Assembly (NCBI GenBank): GCA_947626915.1
Contig: CANQUA010000029.1
Span: forward strand, 1 to 38,955
Length of the DNA stretch: 38,955 bases
DNA from: an uncultured Lachnospiraceae bacterium
GTDB taxonomy: Bacteria > Bacillota > Clostridia > Lachnospirales > Lachnospiraceae
Reading direction: 5' to 3'
Part shown: in pieces, positions 7,100 to 34,051 of the stretch
How the letters are laid out: every line of letters begins with the position of its first letter
Numbering within the stretch: the stretch's first letter is position 1
Notes under the pieces: generated by a model
The model's input: the letters and a program-made list of their open reading frames with translations, nothing else
Told to the model about the DNA's origin: nothing
The model's database searches: none
Made by a program: the position numbers and the translations under genes

Positions 7100-7559
7100 G
7101 AAGCTTCCTCCTCACCCGTATCTTCTGGACAATCCGGTACGCGATAAATCCGATCGCTCCGCCGAGCGTATTCAGGACCAGATCGTCCACGTCAAAGCTG
7201 CCCACCCTGGTGACCAGCTGGACGCATTCGATGCAGAGACTCAGCAGAAACGTGAGGAATACGGTCCGGAAAAATCCCCTGGCTTTCGGGCTCACGATCG
7301 GCAGCATAAACGCAAACGGCATAAACGCCAGCACATTGCCCGCCAGATTGACCAGCACCACATCCCAGCCCAGCTGTTCTCTGTATCTGTAAAAACGCTT
7401 GATTTCTTTAAACGGTTCCAGATTATAGGCATACTCCATCGCGAGCCCTCCGCCGCGGCGAAACGTCTCAGCAAAAAATACCAGATAGATCAGCACAGCC
7501 AGGTACAGAATAAACAGTACCCAGATGCCCTTCTGGTTTCGCGTATATTTATGAAACAT
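7074..7559 (-). CDS. VanZ-like family membrane protein
   Basis: A 161-residue protein with about four hydrophobic segments. It shows the VanZ-family pattern: NLAGNVLAFMPFAFMLP, then ECVQLVTRVGSFDVDDL with its conserved acidic/Arg residues, then NTLGGAIGF. VanZ proteins confer low-level teicoplanin resistance in one case, but most chromosomal homologues have unknown envelope roles, so no resistance claim is made. ATG 7559 follows GGGAG at a fitting distance. The open frame reaches 7691, but that extension is Pro/Gly-rich and lacks a start signal. The 3' end overlaps the next gene. Confidence 0.85.
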   Translation of the reverse strand: MFHKYTRNQKGIWVLFILYLAVLIYLVFFAETFRRGGGLAMEYAYNLEPFKEIKRFYRYREQLGWDVVLVNLAGNVLAFMPFAFMLPIVSPKARGFFRTVFLTFLLSLCIECVQLVTRVGSFDVDDLVLNTLGGAIGFIAYRIVQKIRVRRKLRAGKKKHA

Positions 7560-7748
7560 AGTCTGCTCCCACAAATTCCAGTCTATAAAAACGCCCTGCG
7601 GCGGCGTAATGGTCCATCCTGAGCTTCCGTCCGGTCTGCCGTCCGCGGTTTCCCCGGGGGCTGTCTCCGGACAAGGAACGGGCTGCCGCAAACCGGTTCC
7701 GGCAGCCTATCCGGACCGGAACACTCGCTTACGGCAGCTCCTCTTACG

Positions 7749-7898
7749 TTAAAATGACAGATGTGCTTTTTTCTTCAGCAGATTCGCGCCGCTGACAACC
7801 GCAATCACGCCGGTGCTGACGCCGGCCACGATCATGATGATGCCGATGGCAATGTTGGCAACGCCCGTATTTCTCATAGCTTTATAAACTTTCTCCAT
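7749..7898 (-). CDS. Small single-pass membrane peptide of 49 residues
   Basis: The frame starts MEKVYKAMRNTGVANI and continues with a strongly hydrophobic Ile/Val/Gly helix at about residues 13-40, then a basic KKK stretch before the stop. AAGGAGG sits 7 bp before the ATG at 7898. The clean start signal and membrane-helix-plus-charged-tail design make it a real gene, although it is short. Its function is not known to me; similar small proteins occur in related clostridia. It lies 112 bp behind pyrE on the same strand. Confidence 0.75.
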   Translation of the reverse strand: MEKVYKAMRNTGVANIAIGIIMIVAGVSTGVIAVVSGANLLKKKAHLSF

Positions 7899-8010
7899 CC
7901 TGCGCCCTCCTTCCTGTCATGAACCCGCGTTTTCTCTGTGCCGGAAGCTTCCGCCTGCTTCGGATGTCCCGTCCGCCGCAGGGTCCGGCCGCTGCGCCGC
8001 TTTGCTTTCA

Positions 8011-8685
8011 TTAGCGTGCGCCGTACTGCTCATAATATGCGTCGATCGCCGCTTTCAGCGTATCGTCAATCACAATCCTGCCCAGACACTCCCGGTTATA
8101 GAGGTACTCCACGACCTCCGCCATCGTCACGATGGCATTGGCCCGGATCCCGTAAAGATCCCGGATCTCCTCCAGGGCGCTCTTCTCGCCCTTGCCCTTC
8201 TCCATGCGGTTTAAGGACACCATCAGCCCGACGATCTCTACATCCGCCTGGGCCTTCAGGATCGGGAACGTCTCCTCGATGGACTTGCCGGAGGTCGTCA
8301 CGTCCTCGATGATCACGACCCGGTCGCCGTCGGACAGCTTGCTGCCCAGCAGGATCCCCGTATCGCCGTGGTCCTTGATCTCCTTGCGGTTGGAACAATA
8401 ACGGATCTCTTTTCCGTAAAGCTCATGGAATGCGATCACCGCCGCCACGCTCAGGGGAATCCCCTTGTAGGCCGGCCCGAACAGCACGTCAAAATCGTCC
8501 CCGTAATGCGCATGAATAGCCTCCGCATAATACCGCCCCAGCCGCATCAGCTGGGAACCGGTCACGTAGGCCCCCGCATTCATGAAAAACGGGGATTTCC
8601 GCCCGCTTTTCAGCGTAAAATCTCCAAATTTGAGCACATTGCTCTCCACCATAAACGTAATAAATTCCTGCTTGTACCGTTCCAT
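8011..8685 (-). CDS. pyrE: Orotate phosphoribosyltransferase
   Basis: PyrE joins orotate to PRPP to form orotidine monophosphate, step five of UMP synthesis. The 224-residue protein has the expected length for the clostridial form and carries the PRPP-binding loop VVIIEDVTTSGKS at residues 123-135, plus the phosphate-contact region SGRKSPFF near residues 27-34. ATG 8685 is chosen over an upstream ATG (8736) because the extension is not PyrE-like. The ribosome binding site is weak (AGGGG about 9 bp away). It is the last gene of the pyr block and also has its own promoter at 8737-8765. Confidence 0.95.
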   Translation of the reverse strand: MERYKQEFITFMVESNVLKFGDFTLKSGRKSPFFMNAGAYVTGSQLMRLGRYYAEAIHAHYGDDFDVLFGPAYKGIPLSVAAVIAFHELYGKEIRYCSNRKEIKDHGDTGILLGSKLSDGDRVVIIEDVTTSGKSIEETFPILKAQADVEIVGLMVSLNRMEKGKGEKSALEEIRDLYGIRANAIVTMAEVVEYLYNRECLGRIVIDDTLKAAIDAYYEQYGAR

Positions 8686-8736
8686 GCCCTGAAAACCCCT
8701 CTTTCTGTCTGCTCTGTCGTGTATCGGTCTATCCAT

Positions 8737-8765
8737 TTTATATCATAAACGCCGCGCTTTTTCAA
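8737..8765 (-). promoter_or_regulatory. Internal promoter before pyrE
   Basis: TTGAAA (8760-8765), a 17-bp spacer and TATAAA (8737-8742) lie in the 104-bp gap between pyrD and pyrE. pyrE could thus be expressed apart from the rest of the pyr genes. Confidence 0.6.
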
Positions 8766-8789
8766 TCAGTTTCGCCGGGCCGCCCGCTC

Positions 8790-9695
8790 TTATCGCACCG
8801 CTCCGATCAGTTCCCGGATATCCTCGATCCCGTACCGGTCCATATAGCGCCCGATCCCTTCCGCGATCCGGACCGTGGCATAGGGATCGTGGAAATTGGC
8901 CGTGCCCACTGCCACCGCGGTCGCTCCCGCCAAAAGGAACTCGATGGCGTCGTCCGCCGTCAGGATGCCGCCCATGCCGATGATGGGCAGCTTCACCGCC
9001 CGGGCCGTCTGATAGACCATCCGGACCGCCACCGGTTTGACCGCCGGTCCCGAAAGGCCCCCCGTTTTGTTGGCCAGGGCGAAGGTCCTTTTGTGAATGT
9101 CGATCTTCATGCCGGTCAGTGTGTTGATCAAAGACAGCGCGTCCGCGCCGCCGGCCTCGGCCGCCTTCGCCATGACCGTGATATCCGCCACATTGGGACT
9201 CAGCTTCATGATAATGGGCTGCTTCGCTTTCGCTTTTACCGCCTTCGTAATGGCCTCCACCGCCTTCGGATCCTGGCCGAACGCGATGCCCCCCTCTTTC
9301 ACATTGGGGCAGGAAATATTGATCTCCAGAAGGTCCACCGGCTCGCCGGACAGCCGTTCCACTACCTCCACATAATCCTCCGCGGTCCGCCCGCAGACGT
9401 TGACGACGATCTTCGTATCATACTGTTTCAAAAACGGGATATCCCGGGACACGAACACATCGATGCCGGGATTCTGCAGGCCGATGGCGTTGAGCATGCC
9501 TCCATAAACCTCGGCGATCCTGGGCGTCGGATTGCCGGGCCACGGAACGTTCGCGACGCCCTTCGTCACAACCGCCCCCAGACGGCTCAGATCCACAAAC
9601 TCGCTGTATTCCTCGCCGGAGCCAAAGGTACCGGAAGCCGTCATGACCGGATTTTTCAGCTCCACGCCTGCAATCGTCACGCTCGTATTTTTCAC
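8790..9695 (-). CDS. pyrD: Dihydroorotate dehydrogenase, type 1B catalytic subunit
   Basis: A 301-residue FMN enzyme that oxidises dihydroorotate to orotate. The adjacent PyrK marks it as the NAD-linked 1B form (PyrD2K2). Visible features are the FMN-site lysine in VTKGV (K45), NPTPRI, and the loop INISCPNVKEGG, where C129 is the expected active-site base of class 1 enzymes (the fumarate-type and 1B forms use Cys rather than Ser). The C-terminal IIGMGGI and AVGTANF strands bind FMN phosphate. Start is GTG 9695 with GAGGAGG upstream. It overlaps the pyrK stop by 4 bp (GTGA), so the two subunits are translationally coupled. Confidence 0.96.
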   Translation of the reverse strand: MKNTSVTIAGVELKNPVMTASGTFGSGEEYSEFVDLSRLGAVVTKGVANVPWPGNPTPRIAEVYGGMLNAIGLQNPGIDVFVSRDIPFLKQYDTKIVVNVCGRTAEDYVEVVERLSGEPVDLLEINISCPNVKEGGIAFGQDPKAVEAITKAVKAKAKQPIIMKLSPNVADITVMAKAAEAGGADALSLINTLTGMKIDIHKRTFALANKTGGLSGPAVKPVAVRMVYQTARAVKLPIIGMGGILTADDAIEFLLAGATAVAVGTANFHDPYATVRIAEGIGRYMDRYGIEDIRELIGAVR

Positions 9696-28510: not shown

Positions 28511-29158
28511 TCAGCGGATTTTATGGGCCGACGCATACTCCGACACGGCCCGGAAATGCTCGTCGTAGGGATAATCCTGCCGTCCGAACTGCAGCCACAT
28601 CTCCGACCAGGACATGCCGCTTTTCAAAAGCGCGGCGACCCCGGCGTCCTCCATCGTCCGGTTGCCCTCCTGCCGCGTCAGATCCACACAACCCTCTTCG
28701 TCATACAGCCGGCACTGCAGATCGCACTCCAGCTTATCGCACTGATAGGCGAACAGCGCTTCCTTCGTCCGGCGGGCGTCGAATTCCAGGAACAGTTCCT
28801 CGATCTGTTCCCCGTCCAGCAGGACGCCCAGGATCCGGTGCACCGCCTCATGCTCCAGCTTCTCCTTCTCCTCCGGGCCGATCTGGAACCGGGTCAGATC
28901 CCCGATCACCGCCTCGCCGATCTCATGAACCGCCAGCATGAAGATCACCTTCCGGATATCGAGCTCATACCGATATTCGGATTTCATCGCGATCGCCAGC
29001 ATCTGAACCCCGAACACATGCTCCGCCACGCTCTCGACCCGCTCCCGCCTGACACGCCAGTCCTTCCAGCCGGTCCGGATCATGTCCTTCAGCCGGGCGC
29101 ACAGCACATAATACTCCAATACTCTCTGTTCCTTTGAACGTTCCTCTGTTTTTTCCAT
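28511..29158 (-). CDS. HD-domain phosphohydrolase-like protein (YfbR type)
   Basis: A 215-residue all-helical soluble protein. It shows the HD-superfamily layout: RVESVAEHVFGV with H47, then MLAVHEIGEAVIGDL with H78-E79 and downstream acidic residues, as in HD_3/YfbR-like 5'-nucleotidases. The usual His-Asp pair reads His-Glu here, which may change metal binding or may be normal for this subgroup. The substrate is unknown; deoxynucleotide hydrolysis is a family-level guess. ATG 29158 has GGGAG 6 bp upstream. It lies upstream of rarA on the same strand and is divergent from the GNAT gene. Confidence 0.8.
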   Translation of the reverse strand: MEKTEERSKEQRVLEYYVLCARLKDMIRTGWKDWRVRRERVESVAEHVFGVQMLAIAMKSEYRYELDIRKVIFMLAVHEIGEAVIGDLTRFQIGPEEKEKLEHEAVHRILGVLLDGEQIEELFLEFDARRTKEALFAYQCDKLECDLQCRLYDEEGCVDLTRQEGNRTMEDAGVAALLKSGMSWSEMWLQFGRQDYPYDEHFRAVSEYASAHKIR

Positions 29159-29290
29159 AAAAGACTCCCTGTCCGTAAACCAAAACCATTCTGTATCCCG
29201 ACGCCGTCCCGCGCAGGCCGCGCAGATCGTCCCTCCCGGAACTTTCCTGCCAAAATCGGCCCCGCATCCTCCCATCCCCCTGAAAACGAC

Positions 29291-29877: not shown

Positions 29878-30786
29878 CTACGCTTCCAGGAACGCCTTCA
29901 AAAATTCCGAGTGATCCCTGCCGTAGCGGGTGCTGGGAATATCCTCTCGGACGTCCGTGGCCATGACATATTCGCAGTCGTCTTCATCGGCTGCCATTAC
30001 CATGGCCGTCCGGCGGATCTTCCCGGTGATCTCAGCGAATACCTTTTCAAATTCCTGATCCGTATTCATATGATAAACCGTTTGTTCCTGAGACAGTCCC
30101 CCGAGCCACCTTTCGTCGATCCCCCTGCCGATCCCGACCGGGATCACATGCAGGCTCCCTTCCGCGGACTGCCTGCGGACCTCCTGCCGCAGCCGCTCCG
30201 CTTCCTCTCCGTCGGTGGGGTTCCCGTCGCTTAAAAAGATCAGAACCGGCCGGTAGCTGTCGTTTCCCGCGCCCGCCGTGATCTCATTCTGCCGTTTCAG
30301 CCGGCCCAGCGCCATCTCCAGCCCTTTGGCCGCGTTGGTCTCCGCCTTCTTCACGTCGATGTGATACGGACAGTCCGGATGTACCCGGTTTATATCCGTA
30401 AATTCCACATAACAATCCGCATACTGATCGAACGTTACGATGCAGACCACCGCCGAGGCTGACAGGACCTCATCCTCCCGCATCCGCCTGAGCATATTGC
30501 TGAACACGTTTTGCAGCTCCTCCATGCGGGTCACCAGCTTCACGCCCGGCCTGGGGCGCACGGTAACCACCCTGCTGCCGTCGTCGTTCCGCGCCGTTCC
30601 TTCCTCTATCACACAGTCCGACCTGTCATTAATGATGATCCGCATGGAACTGCTGGTATCCACGCAGAAGCAGATGGGAATCCTCGCGTCTCCACGGGAA
30701 ATCGTACTCTCATACTGGTCATAATAATCCGCGGTGTAATAAGCCTCCGAGAAATCATCTAAGGACGCCGTATAATATTCTTCCAT
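29878..30786 (-). CDS. Von Willebrand A (TerY-like) protein of the TIR/kinase operon
   Basis: A 302-residue cytoplasmic vWA protein with no signal peptide. The MIDAS metal site is intact: DTSSS at 43-47, T150 and D187 (FLSDGNPTD). A roughly 40-residue charged insertion (about 50-88) follows the first MIDAS loop. The N-terminal 30 residues are Tyr/Asp/Glu-rich. TerY-type vWA proteins work beside a protein kinase and often a PP2C phosphatase; no PP2C gene is in this cluster. ATG 30786 has AGGAGAG upstream. It is third in the operon, 15 bp behind the PIN-kinase gene. It may be a metal-dependent scaffold or substrate. Confidence 0.85.
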   Translation of the reverse strand: MEEYYTASLDDFSEAYYTADYYDQYESTISRGDARIPICFCVDTSSSMRIIINDRSDCVIEEGTARNDDGSRVVTVRPRPGVKLVTRMEELQNVFSNMLRRMREDEVLSASAVVCIVTFDQYADCYVEFTDINRVHPDCPYHIDVKKAETNAAKGLEMALGRLKRQNEITAGAGNDSYRPVLIFLSDGNPTDGEEAERLRQEVRRQSAEGSLHVIPVGIGRGIDERWLGGLSQEQTVYHMNTDQEFEKVFAEITGKIRRTAMVMAADEDDCEYVMATDVREDIPSTRYGRDHSEFLKAFLEA

Positions 30787-30801
30787 AAACTCTCCTCGTT
30801 T

Positions 30802-32859
30802 CTATCGTGCTTTCTTTCTCTCCGCCCTGCACGCTTTACAGTACACAGCCTCCCGGAGCCCTTTTTCTATATTGCGTTCATGTTCCTCCTGCGTGATCGC
30901 GAAGGACGCGCCGCAGTTTTTGCACAGGACGGTTTTGTAAACCATCTTGCCCCTCCTGCTGTTGCAGCTGACGCACCTTCCGTCCTTCAGCCAGAAATAC
31001 GGGACCTGCCTGCCGCATTCCTGGCAGGGAAGGGTCTTATTCTTGCAGTCCCGGCAATATTTCTGGGCGTTCCACCCTTCTTTCTGCTTCGCTCCCAGAT
31101 AGAGGGCGGCCCGATTGGTATAAAAATAAGTCTTTCTGCAGATTTCGCAGGTAAAAGAAACCTCCGACCGTTTCTCCATGCAGCTGTTGCAGATCCGGTA
31201 TTCGTCGAACGCGCGGCTGCCGAAATCGCCGTCCTGCTTTCCGGCTCCGTTCGGGACCAGTTCCCGGTACATTTGCTCCGCTATGCGGAAATACTGCCTG
31301 GGATAGGGGACGCCGCAGATCTTACAGGCATAAAAAGTCTCATTCCTGCCGCGCTTAAAGGTGCGGGGATAGATCTTCAGGGATTCCGCGTCGATAGGAT
31401 CCGCCAGTTTTCCGGTTTTCTGAAGTTCTTCCAGCCTGGTCAGCTCCTCCTTCTGCCCCAGGATCAGACCGATCCAGTTGGAAACGTCCCTGCGGTTTTC
31501 TGGTTTTTCGTTTTTGCCTCCCGGACGGAACGTCTGGACAAACGCGTTTTTCAGGGGCCATGACAGATGGCTCCACATAAAGCTCCACATGCCGCGGGGT
31601 TCCGCGCCCTCTTCCGGCTCCGCAGCGTCCGAGAAGGAAAAGCTCCGGCCGGACGACGCCGTATAGGGGGACCTTCCGGCCATCATCAGCATAAATACCA
31701 GGACGGCGACCGCGTAATTCTCATTTTCCTTTCCGCACATGTAAATCTTTTTGTCCCGGAACTCCGGCGGAGTAAAGCTGGCGTTGTAAACCAGGCTGGG
31801 GAAGCCGTCGATCTGGTAATTATCCGTATCCGCAAAACACACCTCCGGCCTGCCGTTTTTGTCCGCAACGCGGATCGCGGCAGGATTGACGCAGCCCATC
31901 AGGATGTTCATGCCGTGCAGATAGCGGATCGTGCCCAGAATCGCAAGCGTCAGATCGCAAAGGTCTTTCCTGGTCCAGCCCCATGCAAGCAGCTTCGCCT
32001 GCTTAAACACGGACTGGTGCAGCGGTTCTCCTGCCGCCGCGGGCATTAAAAAGCCCACGAACTGTCCCGACCGGTCGCGCAGAAGCTCTGCCGGCCAGCA
32101 AAGTCCCCTGTACGAGACCTTCACGGAAAGCATCCGTTTGATCTTCTCCTCCAGAAACGTGCTGAGCGATCCGGGAACATAGAGCTTGGCCCACATGCCG
32201 GCAAGATCGGTGCTGTACGTGACCGCATTGGGATTGACGGCCTCCTGCCGCAGCAGCTTCACCTCCCGGCGGTTCTCCCCGTAGACGGTGGTTCCCTCCC
32301 CGATCTTCTCCGAAAGCACGATCGGACAGATCTGCATCTTCTCGGGTTCGGCGCAGACCGTAAAGGACGCGGCCTTCGGCTTCGGCGCGGCCGTTCCGGA
32401 CGTTTTTTCATACCGGAACGTCTCGGACAGTTCCCCCTGGCCGTCCATATAAAGCAGCTTCACGAACGTTCCCGCATTCCTGGCCGCTTCAATGATCTGC
32501 TTCCTCACGCCGCTGTCATTGGCCACGATGCAGAAGTCTCTTTTCTGGTTCATCGCCGCGATCCGGGGCATCAGAGCCGCATAATCCGCACCGTCCGCGG
32601 CAAGTACCGTCACGAAATTCTGACCGATCAGGCGCCGCACCTCCGTCTCCGCCTCCCGCTTCAATGCAGGCAGGGCAAAGGACGGAACAAACAGCTGCCC
32701 CGTCTCACAATGCAGCTCCGTCTCACGCTCCCTGACCAGCTTCAAAAAGCCCGCCCCGTTTAAACTGCTGGAATCGAACAGGATCTTCCGCTTCTGGCTC
32801 AGAAGCCCGGAAACCGTCAGCCCTTTTTCTGAATGACTGCCATAAGAACCAAAAGGCAT
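30802..32859 (-). CDS. PIN-like / protein-kinase-like / zinc-ribbon fusion protein
   Basis: A 685-residue protein with three parts. Residues 24-150 form a PIN-like domain: KILFDSSSL with D29, then RDFCIVANDSG with D115. Residues 180-450 are a protein-kinase-like fold: P-loop-like EKIGEGTTVYG (184-194), AKLY with K225, ILMGCVNPAAIRV (319-331), FADTDNYQI (342-350) and FTPPEF. The position matching the catalytic Asp of HGD in related kinases is C323, so it may be a pseudokinase. Residues 510-680 hold eight CxxC knuckles (512, 557, 571, 602, 612, 629, 646, 674), likely four zinc ribbons. ATG 32859 has AGGAGG 8 bp upstream; it is 21 bp behind the TIR gene. Confidence 0.85.
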   Translation of the reverse strand: MPFGSYGSHSEKGLTVSGLLSQKRKILFDSSSLNGAGFLKLVRERETELHCETGQLFVPSFALPALKREAETEVRRLIGQNFVTVLAADGADYAALMPRIAAMNQKRDFCIVANDSGVRKQIIEAARNAGTFVKLLYMDGQGELSETFRYEKTSGTAAPKPKAASFTVCAEPEKMQICPIVLSEKIGEGTTVYGENRREVKLLRQEAVNPNAVTYSTDLAGMWAKLYVPGSLSTFLEEKIKRMLSVKVSYRGLCWPAELLRDRSGQFVGFLMPAAAGEPLHQSVFKQAKLLAWGWTRKDLCDLTLAILGTIRYLHGMNILMGCVNPAAIRVADKNGRPEVCFADTDNYQIDGFPSLVYNASFTPPEFRDKKIYMCGKENENYAVAVLVFMLMMAGRSPYTASSGRSFSFSDAAEPEEGAEPRGMWSFMWSHLSWPLKNAFVQTFRPGGKNEKPENRRDVSNWIGLILGQKEELTRLEELQKTGKLADPIDAESLKIYPRTFKRGRNETFYACKICGVPYPRQYFRIAEQMYRELVPNGAGKQDGDFGSRAFDEYRICNSCMEKRSEVSFTCEICRKTYFYTNRAALYLGAKQKEGWNAQKYCRDCKNKTLPCQECGRQVPYFWLKDGRCVSCNSRRGKMVYKTVLCKNCGASFAITQEEHERNIEKGLREAVYCKACRAERKKAR

Positions 32860-32880
32860 CGCAAATTCCTCCTATTTTCA

Positions 32881-33981
32881 TCAATCTGCCAGTTTCTTCT
32901 CATCCGTGTACCGCAGTCCCTGCAGTTCCTCCTCCGGAATCGTCTCGATCCCGTTCAGATATAACCTGGCCTTTTCGTATTTTAATTCCTCCGCCGCATA
33001 TCTTAAGGTCGCGATCAGCTGACGGCGGCTTCCCTTCCGCAGCCAGATCTTGCTGGCCCGGAACAGGCTCTCGCCGTCCCCGTACCGCTCCCCGCAGCCC
33101 AGGTAATACGCCAGGGCCTCCGTATAAGCCTTATCTGCCATTTCCCGCTCGGCGGCTTTTCTCCAGTCCGGCTCCCTGTTTCGGGCAATCTCCCAGCCCT
33201 GCCGGGCTTTCTGCAGATCCTGCCCGAACATGGAATACCGGCTGGCGTACAAATGGGACAGCATCAGCGCGGACGGTACATACGGGACCGCCCGCGCTGC
33301 CCCCAGCCGCAAAAGCGTTTCCGCCTGATGGCCGTCCTCCCGGATCATACATTCCACCGCGTCCCGGTACAGCCTGTCCGCCGAAAGCTTCACACTGCGC
33401 CTGCAGCATTTCTTCAGCTGCCCTTCGATCTCTTCGTAATAATCCGTCAGGCGATCGCCGGCCAGCCTGTACCGGATGCGGGTCTTCTCATTGTTTTTAT
33501 TGACAAAAGAATTCATAAACAGCGTCATCATCCGGGATTTTTCCGCTTTCTGTTCGCTGCTTAAGGAAGACCGCTCAATCTCCCGCCGCATATCGGCGTA
33601 CAGGTCCGCGATATCGCCGATCTCTTCCGCCTCCACCGCGATAAACCCTACCTCTTCCCCGAAATGGGCGTTTTTCGTTTCCTCCGAAACGGCCGTCTGC
33701 AGCTCTTCAAAACAGTTCGCACTGGTCAGGGACCGTCTGCTTACATAAAATAAAAGAATCTCGCAGTTATATCCCCGGATCGCCCTCAGCGCGTCATTTT
33801 TCCATGTACTTTCTTTATCGCCCAGATTCGGCTGATCGATCCACACATTGTATCCCCGCTTCTGAAGTTCCAGGGCGTCCTGCCACGCGACCGCCTGATC
33901 GCCGCTCTGATAGCTGATAAATACATACGGTCTCTCTTTATAATATGGAAGAAGCTGCCTGAGCATCTCACTGCGCTCCAT
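32881..33981 (-). CDS. TIR-domain protein with helical-repeat C terminus
   Basis: A 366-residue protein. Residues 17-150 are a TIR domain: YVFISYQSGDQAVAW (19-33), GYNVWIDQ (43-50), EILLFYVSRRSL, then SANCFEEL, where E93 aligns with the catalytic Glu of NAD-cleaving TIRs. This makes NADase activity possible. Residues about 205-340 are helical and resemble TPR/Sel1-type repeats, likely for partner binding. There is no signal peptide or membrane segment. ATG 33981 has GAGGGGAT at 8 bp; the longer frame to 34008 runs into the leader. It is first in a three-gene operon with its own strong promoter. Confidence 0.87.
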   Translation of the reverse strand: MERSEMLRQLLPYYKERPYVFISYQSGDQAVAWQDALELQKRGYNVWIDQPNLGDKESTWKNDALRAIRGYNCEILLFYVSRRSLTSANCFEELQTAVSEETKNAHFGEEVGFIAVEAEEIGDIADLYADMRREIERSSLSSEQKAEKSRMMTLFMNSFVNKNNEKTRIRYRLAGDRLTDYYEEIEGQLKKCCRRSVKLSADRLYRDAVECMIREDGHQAETLLRLGAARAVPYVPSALMLSHLYASRYSMFGQDLQKARQGWEIARNREPDWRKAAEREMADKAYTEALAYYLGCGERYGDGESLFRASKIWLRKGSRRQLIATLRYAAEELKYEKARLYLNGIETIPEEELQGLRYTDEKKLAD

Positions 33982-34022
33982 GAAGATATCCCCTCTCACT
34001 GCCGGCAAAATTATACATTTTT

Positions 34023-34051
34023 ATTATATAACCGCCCGCAAACCGCGTCAA
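34023..34051 (-). promoter_or_regulatory. Promoter of the TIR operon
   Basis: TTGACG (34046-34051), exactly 17 bp, TATAAT (34023-34028), about 42 bp before the TIR start. This is a near-consensus promoter, so the operon is probably transcribed steadily. Confidence 0.85.

Follow-up and report, generated by a model that had tools for sequence, protein, structure and literature searches.

Three adjacent genes in the genome of an uncultured Lachnospiraceae bacterium, encoding a TIR protein, a pseudokinase with a zinc-binding tail and a vWA protein, appear with fair probability to form an accessory switch-and-effector unit that derives from a TerY-P-type triad, operates free of phosphorylation, has the TIR protein as its output and would act in defence. 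The genes lie on the minus strand of a 38,955-nucleotide stretch of DNA (the window, meaning the whole stretch analysed) in the order promoter-like site, TIR gene, gene of the 685-aa protein and vWA gene, with intergenic gaps of 21 bp (TIR/685-aa gene) and 15 bp (685-aa gene/vWA), as an initial annotation of the DNA had described. The near-consensus promoter which that annotation placed ahead of the trio is likewise present as a promoter-like sequence matching 11 of the 12 consensus positions. The architecture of the unit is well supported and comprises the following features:

34023..34051, minus strand: putative promoter-like site, TTGACG-17-TATAAT
32881..33981, minus strand: predicted TIR effector gene, 366 aa from ATG; homologues at L025, L026 and L153
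33631..33924, minus strand: TIR domain, residues 20-117; Pfam TIR_2, 8.3e-12
33703-33705, minus strand: codon of E93, at the catalytic-Glu position
32884..33399, minus strand: helical, TPR-like tail of the TIR protein
30802..32859, minus strand: pseudoPIN-pseudokinase-zinc ribbon gene, 685 aa
32446..32790, minus strand: decayed PIN-like domain, residues about 24-138; D,A,A,D at the acid positions
31366..32292, minus strand: pseudokinase domain, residues about 190-498, recognised by motif losses
30829..31326, minus strand: zinc-binding tail with eight CxxC, residues 512-677
29878..30786, minus strand: vWA gene, 302 aa, complete MIDAS

An NCBIfam search of the trio proteins returned no match, and PADLOC gave weak matches only, the best being to a SAVED-TIR model (1.4e-5). 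The TIR_2 match of the window TIR protein lies above the Pfam cut-off, and the position of E93, which we take to be that of the catalytic glutamate of TIR NADases, is invariant in all six aligned TIRs (four of them from trios), in line with the catalytic residue expected by the initial annotation. The protein is predicted to have NADase activity and is probably an NAD-consuming abortive-infection module. The Pfam search of the window TIR protein itself gave no TPR match, and TPR_19 scored above the cut-off in its homologue at L025. A search against PDB sequences retrieved one designed protein (E 3.3e-4).

The 685-aa protein had been described as a fusion of PIN-like, kinase-like and eight CxxC parts. 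The eight CxxC were recovered by counting, and zf_Tbcl, the only Pfam match of the protein, is sub-threshold in the window (22.3 against 24) and above threshold in L026 and L028. The kinase-like part stands as to its fold and is refined as to its activity: judged by its motifs, the protein is a pseudokinase that keeps the kinase fold and has lost the catalytic Asp, the Asn and the Gly-rich loop, NPNA replacing GGEG and GCVNPAA replacing GDINPAN, with K225 and D344 kept. The best match of the protein among PDB sequences had E 0.067, and in a structure search the kinase filled the match list, leaving the PIN part uncovered. The catalytic Asp and metal-binding Asn are lost at all nine loci of the pseudokinase clade to which the window belongs. 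In our alignment A6, the catalytic Asp, Asn, Lys and DFG-type Asp are kept in 35/35 other kinases, whereas C/Y and A/S replace the catalytic Asp and Asn in the seven aligned clade members; the same loss is seen in L029 and L153, the latter reading GCPDPASI and having NTD where others have DTD. At L029 (456-2223) two overlapping ORFs make up the kinase-like gene, owing to a frameshift or an assembly error. The retention of K225 and D344 in 7/7 aligned clade members leaves room for nucleotide binding or another transfer activity. SelO and SidJ-type pseudokinases carry out AMP or other group transfer, and a non-canonical enzyme of that kind could modify the TIR or vWA protein, PP2C being gone because no phosphate is added. 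The two retained residues and the purifying selection on the kinase domain (dN/dS 0.17) are what such an enzyme would lead one to expect, but we regard it as unlikely given the loss of the Gly-rich loop pattern in 7/7 aligned members (L025 keeps one glycine) and the N at the DFG-type Asp of L153.

The four acidic PIN active-site positions read D,E,D,D in 30 of 35 related proteins and D,A,A,D in the window, where two of the four acids are thus lost. The domain is degraded or absent in seven of the eight clade members read, being missing from L028 and L091, and a PIN-like segment remains in the window, L024-L027 and L153. The PIN domain, which the initial annotation proposed as a possible second (RNase) output, is accordingly rejected as an output in the window; L026 keeps all four acids, so that an RNase role is possible there. 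The same evidence bears on the idea that the TIR is a non-enzymatic adaptor, with the PIN remnant or another host protein producing the outcome. This idea gains from the intact acids of L026 and from the TIR activity being a prediction, but it is very unlikely in view of the invariant E93 position (6/6), the absence of PIN from L028 and L091 and its degradation in the window.

The vWA protein carries a Pfam VWA domain above the cut-off (E 3.5e-6) and, as had been claimed, a complete MIDAS. It aligns with the vWAs of PP2C triads, the MIDAS residues being invariant in 10/10. It differs from the vWAs of L020 and L017 by an extra loop after DxSxS and a C-terminal extension, and the PADLOC TerY model matched the window weakly (E 0.0071). 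TerY-P is described in the available part of PMC11090510 as a triad of vWA, PP2C and kinase-zinc ribbon proteins hypothesised to be a phosphorylation switch. Compared with that description, the window likewise combines what reads as a TerY-like vWA with a MIDAS and a kinase-fold protein with a C-terminal zinc ribbon; unlike TerY-P, it lacks PP2C, and its kinase is predicted to be inactive, the fold and eight CxxC remaining without the catalytic residues of a working Ser/Thr kinase. Given the pseudokinase and the missing PP2C, the TerY-type link is one of descent with loss of the phosphorylation cycle and not of membership. The kinship with vWA, kinase and PP2C triads drawn by the initial annotation therefore holds as homology and fails as membership of the TerY type.

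This homology is clearest with PIN-kinase-zinc ribbon/vWA/PP2C triads (e.g. L020/L053 and L017, Fusobacterium vincentii), which show a TerY-P-like arrangement and are found across several phyla, also on plasmids (L016, Lysinibacillus; L018, Paenarthrobacter). The middle protein is homologous to theirs over the full PIN-kinase-zinc ribbon length at 25-29% identity, and a vWA homologue is adjacent in these triads as in the window. They differ from the window clade in keeping the kinase residues and, in 71/76 cases, PP2C, whereas the clade has a dead kinase, no PP2C and exchanged effectors. Upstream of the PP2C triads, an HTH-PIN profile matched in 20/76 (L017, L020, L033, L034, L041 and others), a few of which may be split kinase pieces, and a TIR profile matched in 0/76.

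Our census of relatives comprised 84 rows, namely the best 80 of 100 relatives from a genome-contig scan (the 20 weakest being excluded), the window and three plasmid-collection records, one of which (L017) is 2.1 Mb long and may be a chromosome. It includes near-duplicates: in each of two genomes, a pair of loci (L035/L036 and L064/L065) has identical kinase segments. L024 and G020:C88 (L002, L023) denote a single contig, which was counted once. Among the 76 kinases outside the clade, the GD motif is present in 76, PP2C in 71 and vWA in 74 (within 4 kb, same strand), those with the motif intact and without PP2C being L038 and L084, at contig ends, and L059, L067 and L097. The pseudokinase motif was found in eight rows (window, L024, L025, L026, L027, L028, L029 and L091), with vWA in 8/8 and PP2C in 0/8, its absence at L027 being uninformative because the contig ends about 520 bases after vWA. 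In the window, PP2C was absent within 4 kb. A class-wide search (391 genomes, 14 with a match) added L153, from another family, with a TIR, a pseudokinase and vWA and no PP2C, giving 0/8 informative clade loci with PP2C; the remaining matches of this search and of an order-wide one (392 genomes, 6 with a match) keep a GD motif. The pseudokinase clade thus comprises at least nine loci, all in Clostridia and two in the genus of the window, a lower bound because the first scan, based on two short peptide patterns, missed L153.

Phylogenetic analysis of 36 proteins placed the nine clade loci in one group (100/100), as did the 84-row tree for the eight then known (100/100). L153 branches off first in the 36-protein tree, on a long branch that makes its place unsure; if it is basal, a TIR was likely the first effector of the clade. 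The remaining loci divide into four of TIR type (99/98) and four with other effectors (100/100), and the clade may branch within the other triads or beside them as a sister group, the neighbouring forks having supports of 92/74 and 94/84. The Fisher value for PP2C absence against kinase loss (3e-8) ignores kinship and overstates independence, since the two represent one evolutionary event in the clade. The trio is conserved beyond close relatives, a point on which the initial annotation had staked its proposal: a full TIR gene stands directly upstream of the kinase gene, in the common order TIR-kinase-vWA, in the window, L025, L026 and L153, and the congener G020 (L024) shows the TIR tail only on its contig.

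Upstream genes in the clade encode a complete TIR protein at four loci and a TIR tail at one, tentative TIR-like proteins at two, a phosphoesterase at one and a phosphoesterase tail at one. The G020 TIR is represented by its last 137 residues (72% identical) because the contig ends. The L027 and L091 effectors, of about 260 residues and 39% identical to each other, had no Pfam match and scored 0.2% against window-type TIRs by hhalign. The L091 structural model is of low confidence (pLDDT 68.5, two sequences), and its four best PDB matches are weak ones to TIR domains (E 2.5e-3 at best, with none reaching 0.001), Ras-type GTPases being close behind, so that the designation TIR-like is tentative. 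Sequence searches of the L091 effector against the PDB, and at E 0.01 against plasmids, found no match, nor did a search of the L027 effector against phages at E 0.01. The L028 effector is a calcineurin-like phosphoesterase (PF00149, E 9.1e-12) that also matched the PADLOC model 'Effector, Endonuclease' (E 4.8e-17), and L029 retains the last 147 residues only of an effector of this type, 73% identical to L028. The phosphoesterase and TIR-like effectors have a C-terminal tail in common (hhalign 96.5%, E 7e-10; blastp 1e-8 to 4e-4, best 1e-8 to 2e-8 in a 7-protein set), to which the window TIR tail has no detectable kinship by hhalign (0.3% and 0.1%). One sub-clade thus carries different N-terminal domains on one C-terminal tail, as would be expected if the tail docks on conserved partners.

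The window and its congener are the sole pair close enough to measure. Their dN/dS is 0.17 across the middle gene, with 0.27 in the PIN, 0.17 in the kinase and 0.11 in the zinc part; vWA gave 0.12, the TIR tail 0.16 and the adjacent GNAT gene, taken as a control, 0.12. The trio is therefore kept functional by purifying selection (0.11-0.27). A decaying remnant, or chance neighbours without joint function, would account for the degenerate catalytic sites and the rarity of the set, but is contradicted by these values from the one pair and by the gene order common to the window, L025, L026 and L153, and is extremely improbable.

The trio is an accessory unit, present patchily in 2 of 26 genomes of the genus. 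The adjacent GNAT gene occurs in 14/26, and 11 of the 12 besides the window and G020 were examined, G015 being excluded for its contig edge. RarA lies near GNAT in all 11 stretches and the genes on the other side differ; TIR, kinase and vWA were found in 0/11, some of the stretches ending 1-2 kb past GNAT. The six genes flanking the trio in the window (MgsA/RarA, HD, GNAT, Na/H exchanger, LytTR and GHKL by Pfam) are of housekeeping or regulatory types. The HD-domain gene (HD_3, YfbR-like; 28511-29161, minus strand), located between RarA and GNAT, also adjoins GNAT in G020, but tblastn (1e-8) did not detect it in any of the 11 other congener stretches; it may move together with the trio or simply mark kinship. 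L027 and L028 have serine recombinase genes nearby. A search of 50,697 phage records with the kinase gene gave nothing at E 1e-5, and its carriage by phages or viruses was rejected, none of 83 pattern matches in IMG/VR being a relative by tblastn. The enrichment near defence genes envisaged by the initial annotation found no support: PADLOC, applied to 34 of 37 mechanically called neighbour ORFs at seven loci (three L023 ORFs and the neighbours of the window and L153 being left out), matched 12 families by a single ORF each and no complete system.

This lack of a defence-island context at the seven loci, like the hypothesis that TerY-P is a metal-sensing switch (available part of PMC11090510), would suit a non-defence stress or metal switch in which metal or damage is detected by the zinc ribbons and vWA, and the TIR serves normal physiology by producing an NAD-derived signal. 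Such a switch is nevertheless rather unlikely, as the patchy presence in the genus, the exchanged effectors, the recombinase genes near L027 and L028 and the PP2C-type relatives on plasmids speak against it. TerY-P relatives with an OB-fold kinase are stand-alone antiphage systems, according to the parts of PMC11090510 and PMC7699616 available.

Thoeris and other TIR defence systems possess a TIR with a conserved catalytic Glu, a position conserved in the window as well. Unlike in Thoeris, no ThsA-like gene is present among the six flanking window genes, and ThsB models matched L025 and L026 weakly (E 0.012 and 2.3e-4). MoxR-vWA (VMAP) ternary conflict systems, as far as the accessible text of PMC7159879 describes them, resemble the clade in combining vWA proteins with variable effectors, TIR among them, and in having catalytic residues disrupted in most kinase domains. 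They differ in that MoxR is absent among the six flanking window genes (the only AAA+ being MgsA/RarA) and that the window vWA is a separate protein of PP2C-triad type. TIR-like NADases with DUF4062 are, from the part of a 2026 preprint at hand (PMC13174449), a different system. The TIR/pseudokinase/vWA set was found in none of the literature searched, comprising the available parts of PMC11090510, PMC7159879, PMC7699616, PMC12839542, PMC10853773, PMC3710099, PMC4978471, PMC13174449 and PMC10907252; the founding TerY-P work and Gao 2020 may cover PIN-kinase fusions.

We favour a history in which a PIN-kinase-zinc ribbon/vWA/PP2C triad would have seen its kinase become a pseudokinase, its PP2C lost and its PIN domain mostly decayed, the TIR protein encoded upstream becoming the output. 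In this accessory switch-and-effector unit, the vWA protein, through metal-dependent peptide binding via its MIDAS, and the pseudokinase-zinc ribbon protein would associate and, by way of the helical tail of the TIR protein, keep it inactive. A trigger bound by the zinc ribbon or vWA as sensor would change the complex, and the released TIRs would assemble and consume NAD, leading to growth stop or death of an infected cell. A broader reading, for and against which the evidence seems to us almost evenly poised, is of a lineage of conflict systems in which a pseudokinase-vWA gate, formerly a kinase/phosphatase relay and now phosphorylation-free, might serve interchangeable killer enzymes (TIR NADase, divergent TIR and calcineurin-like nuclease). 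In animals, MLKL exemplifies pseudokinase-gated cell death and may offer a parallel. One family would then show a phosphorylation switch losing its chemistry yet persisting as a gate for exchanged effectors, and protection by the pseudokinase version would mean that a TerY-P-like switch can do without phosphorylation. The unit offers a testable case for the roles of the kinase, phosphatase and vWA parts in TerY-P-like modules, and, for comparison, a TIR family that has defined partners and naturally replaced effectors.

Several related arrangements were observed outside the clade. L010 encodes a 606-aa protein (7448-9268) whose TIR is 43% identical to the window TIR; no kinase/vWA trio was seen beside it, and its gene is preceded, by eye, by giant kinase-like and TrkA-like proteins. 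L112 (3852-8635), among the matches of the class-wide and order-wide searches, encodes a 1246-aa PIN-kinase-like protein in which GDIN is kept and NTD replaces the DFG-type DTD. It has vWA, PP2C was absent from the 12 kb covered, and the phosphorylation cycle may have been partly lost here in a separate, parallel event. A vWA/kinase unit with GDIQLKN in the kinase occurs in ten genomes belonging to a single genus of the class (L142-L151, L155-L157), with PP2C in nine, the tenth locus being cut short; its proximity to a sirtuin-like gene in three larger regions, noted by eye, suggests that it may be a core function. In Bacillaceae (L075, L077, L080 and L081) a second kinase-vWA pair follows the first triad, and Campylobacter gastrosuis (L035, L036) carries two PP2C-type triad copies with identical kinase segments on one contig.
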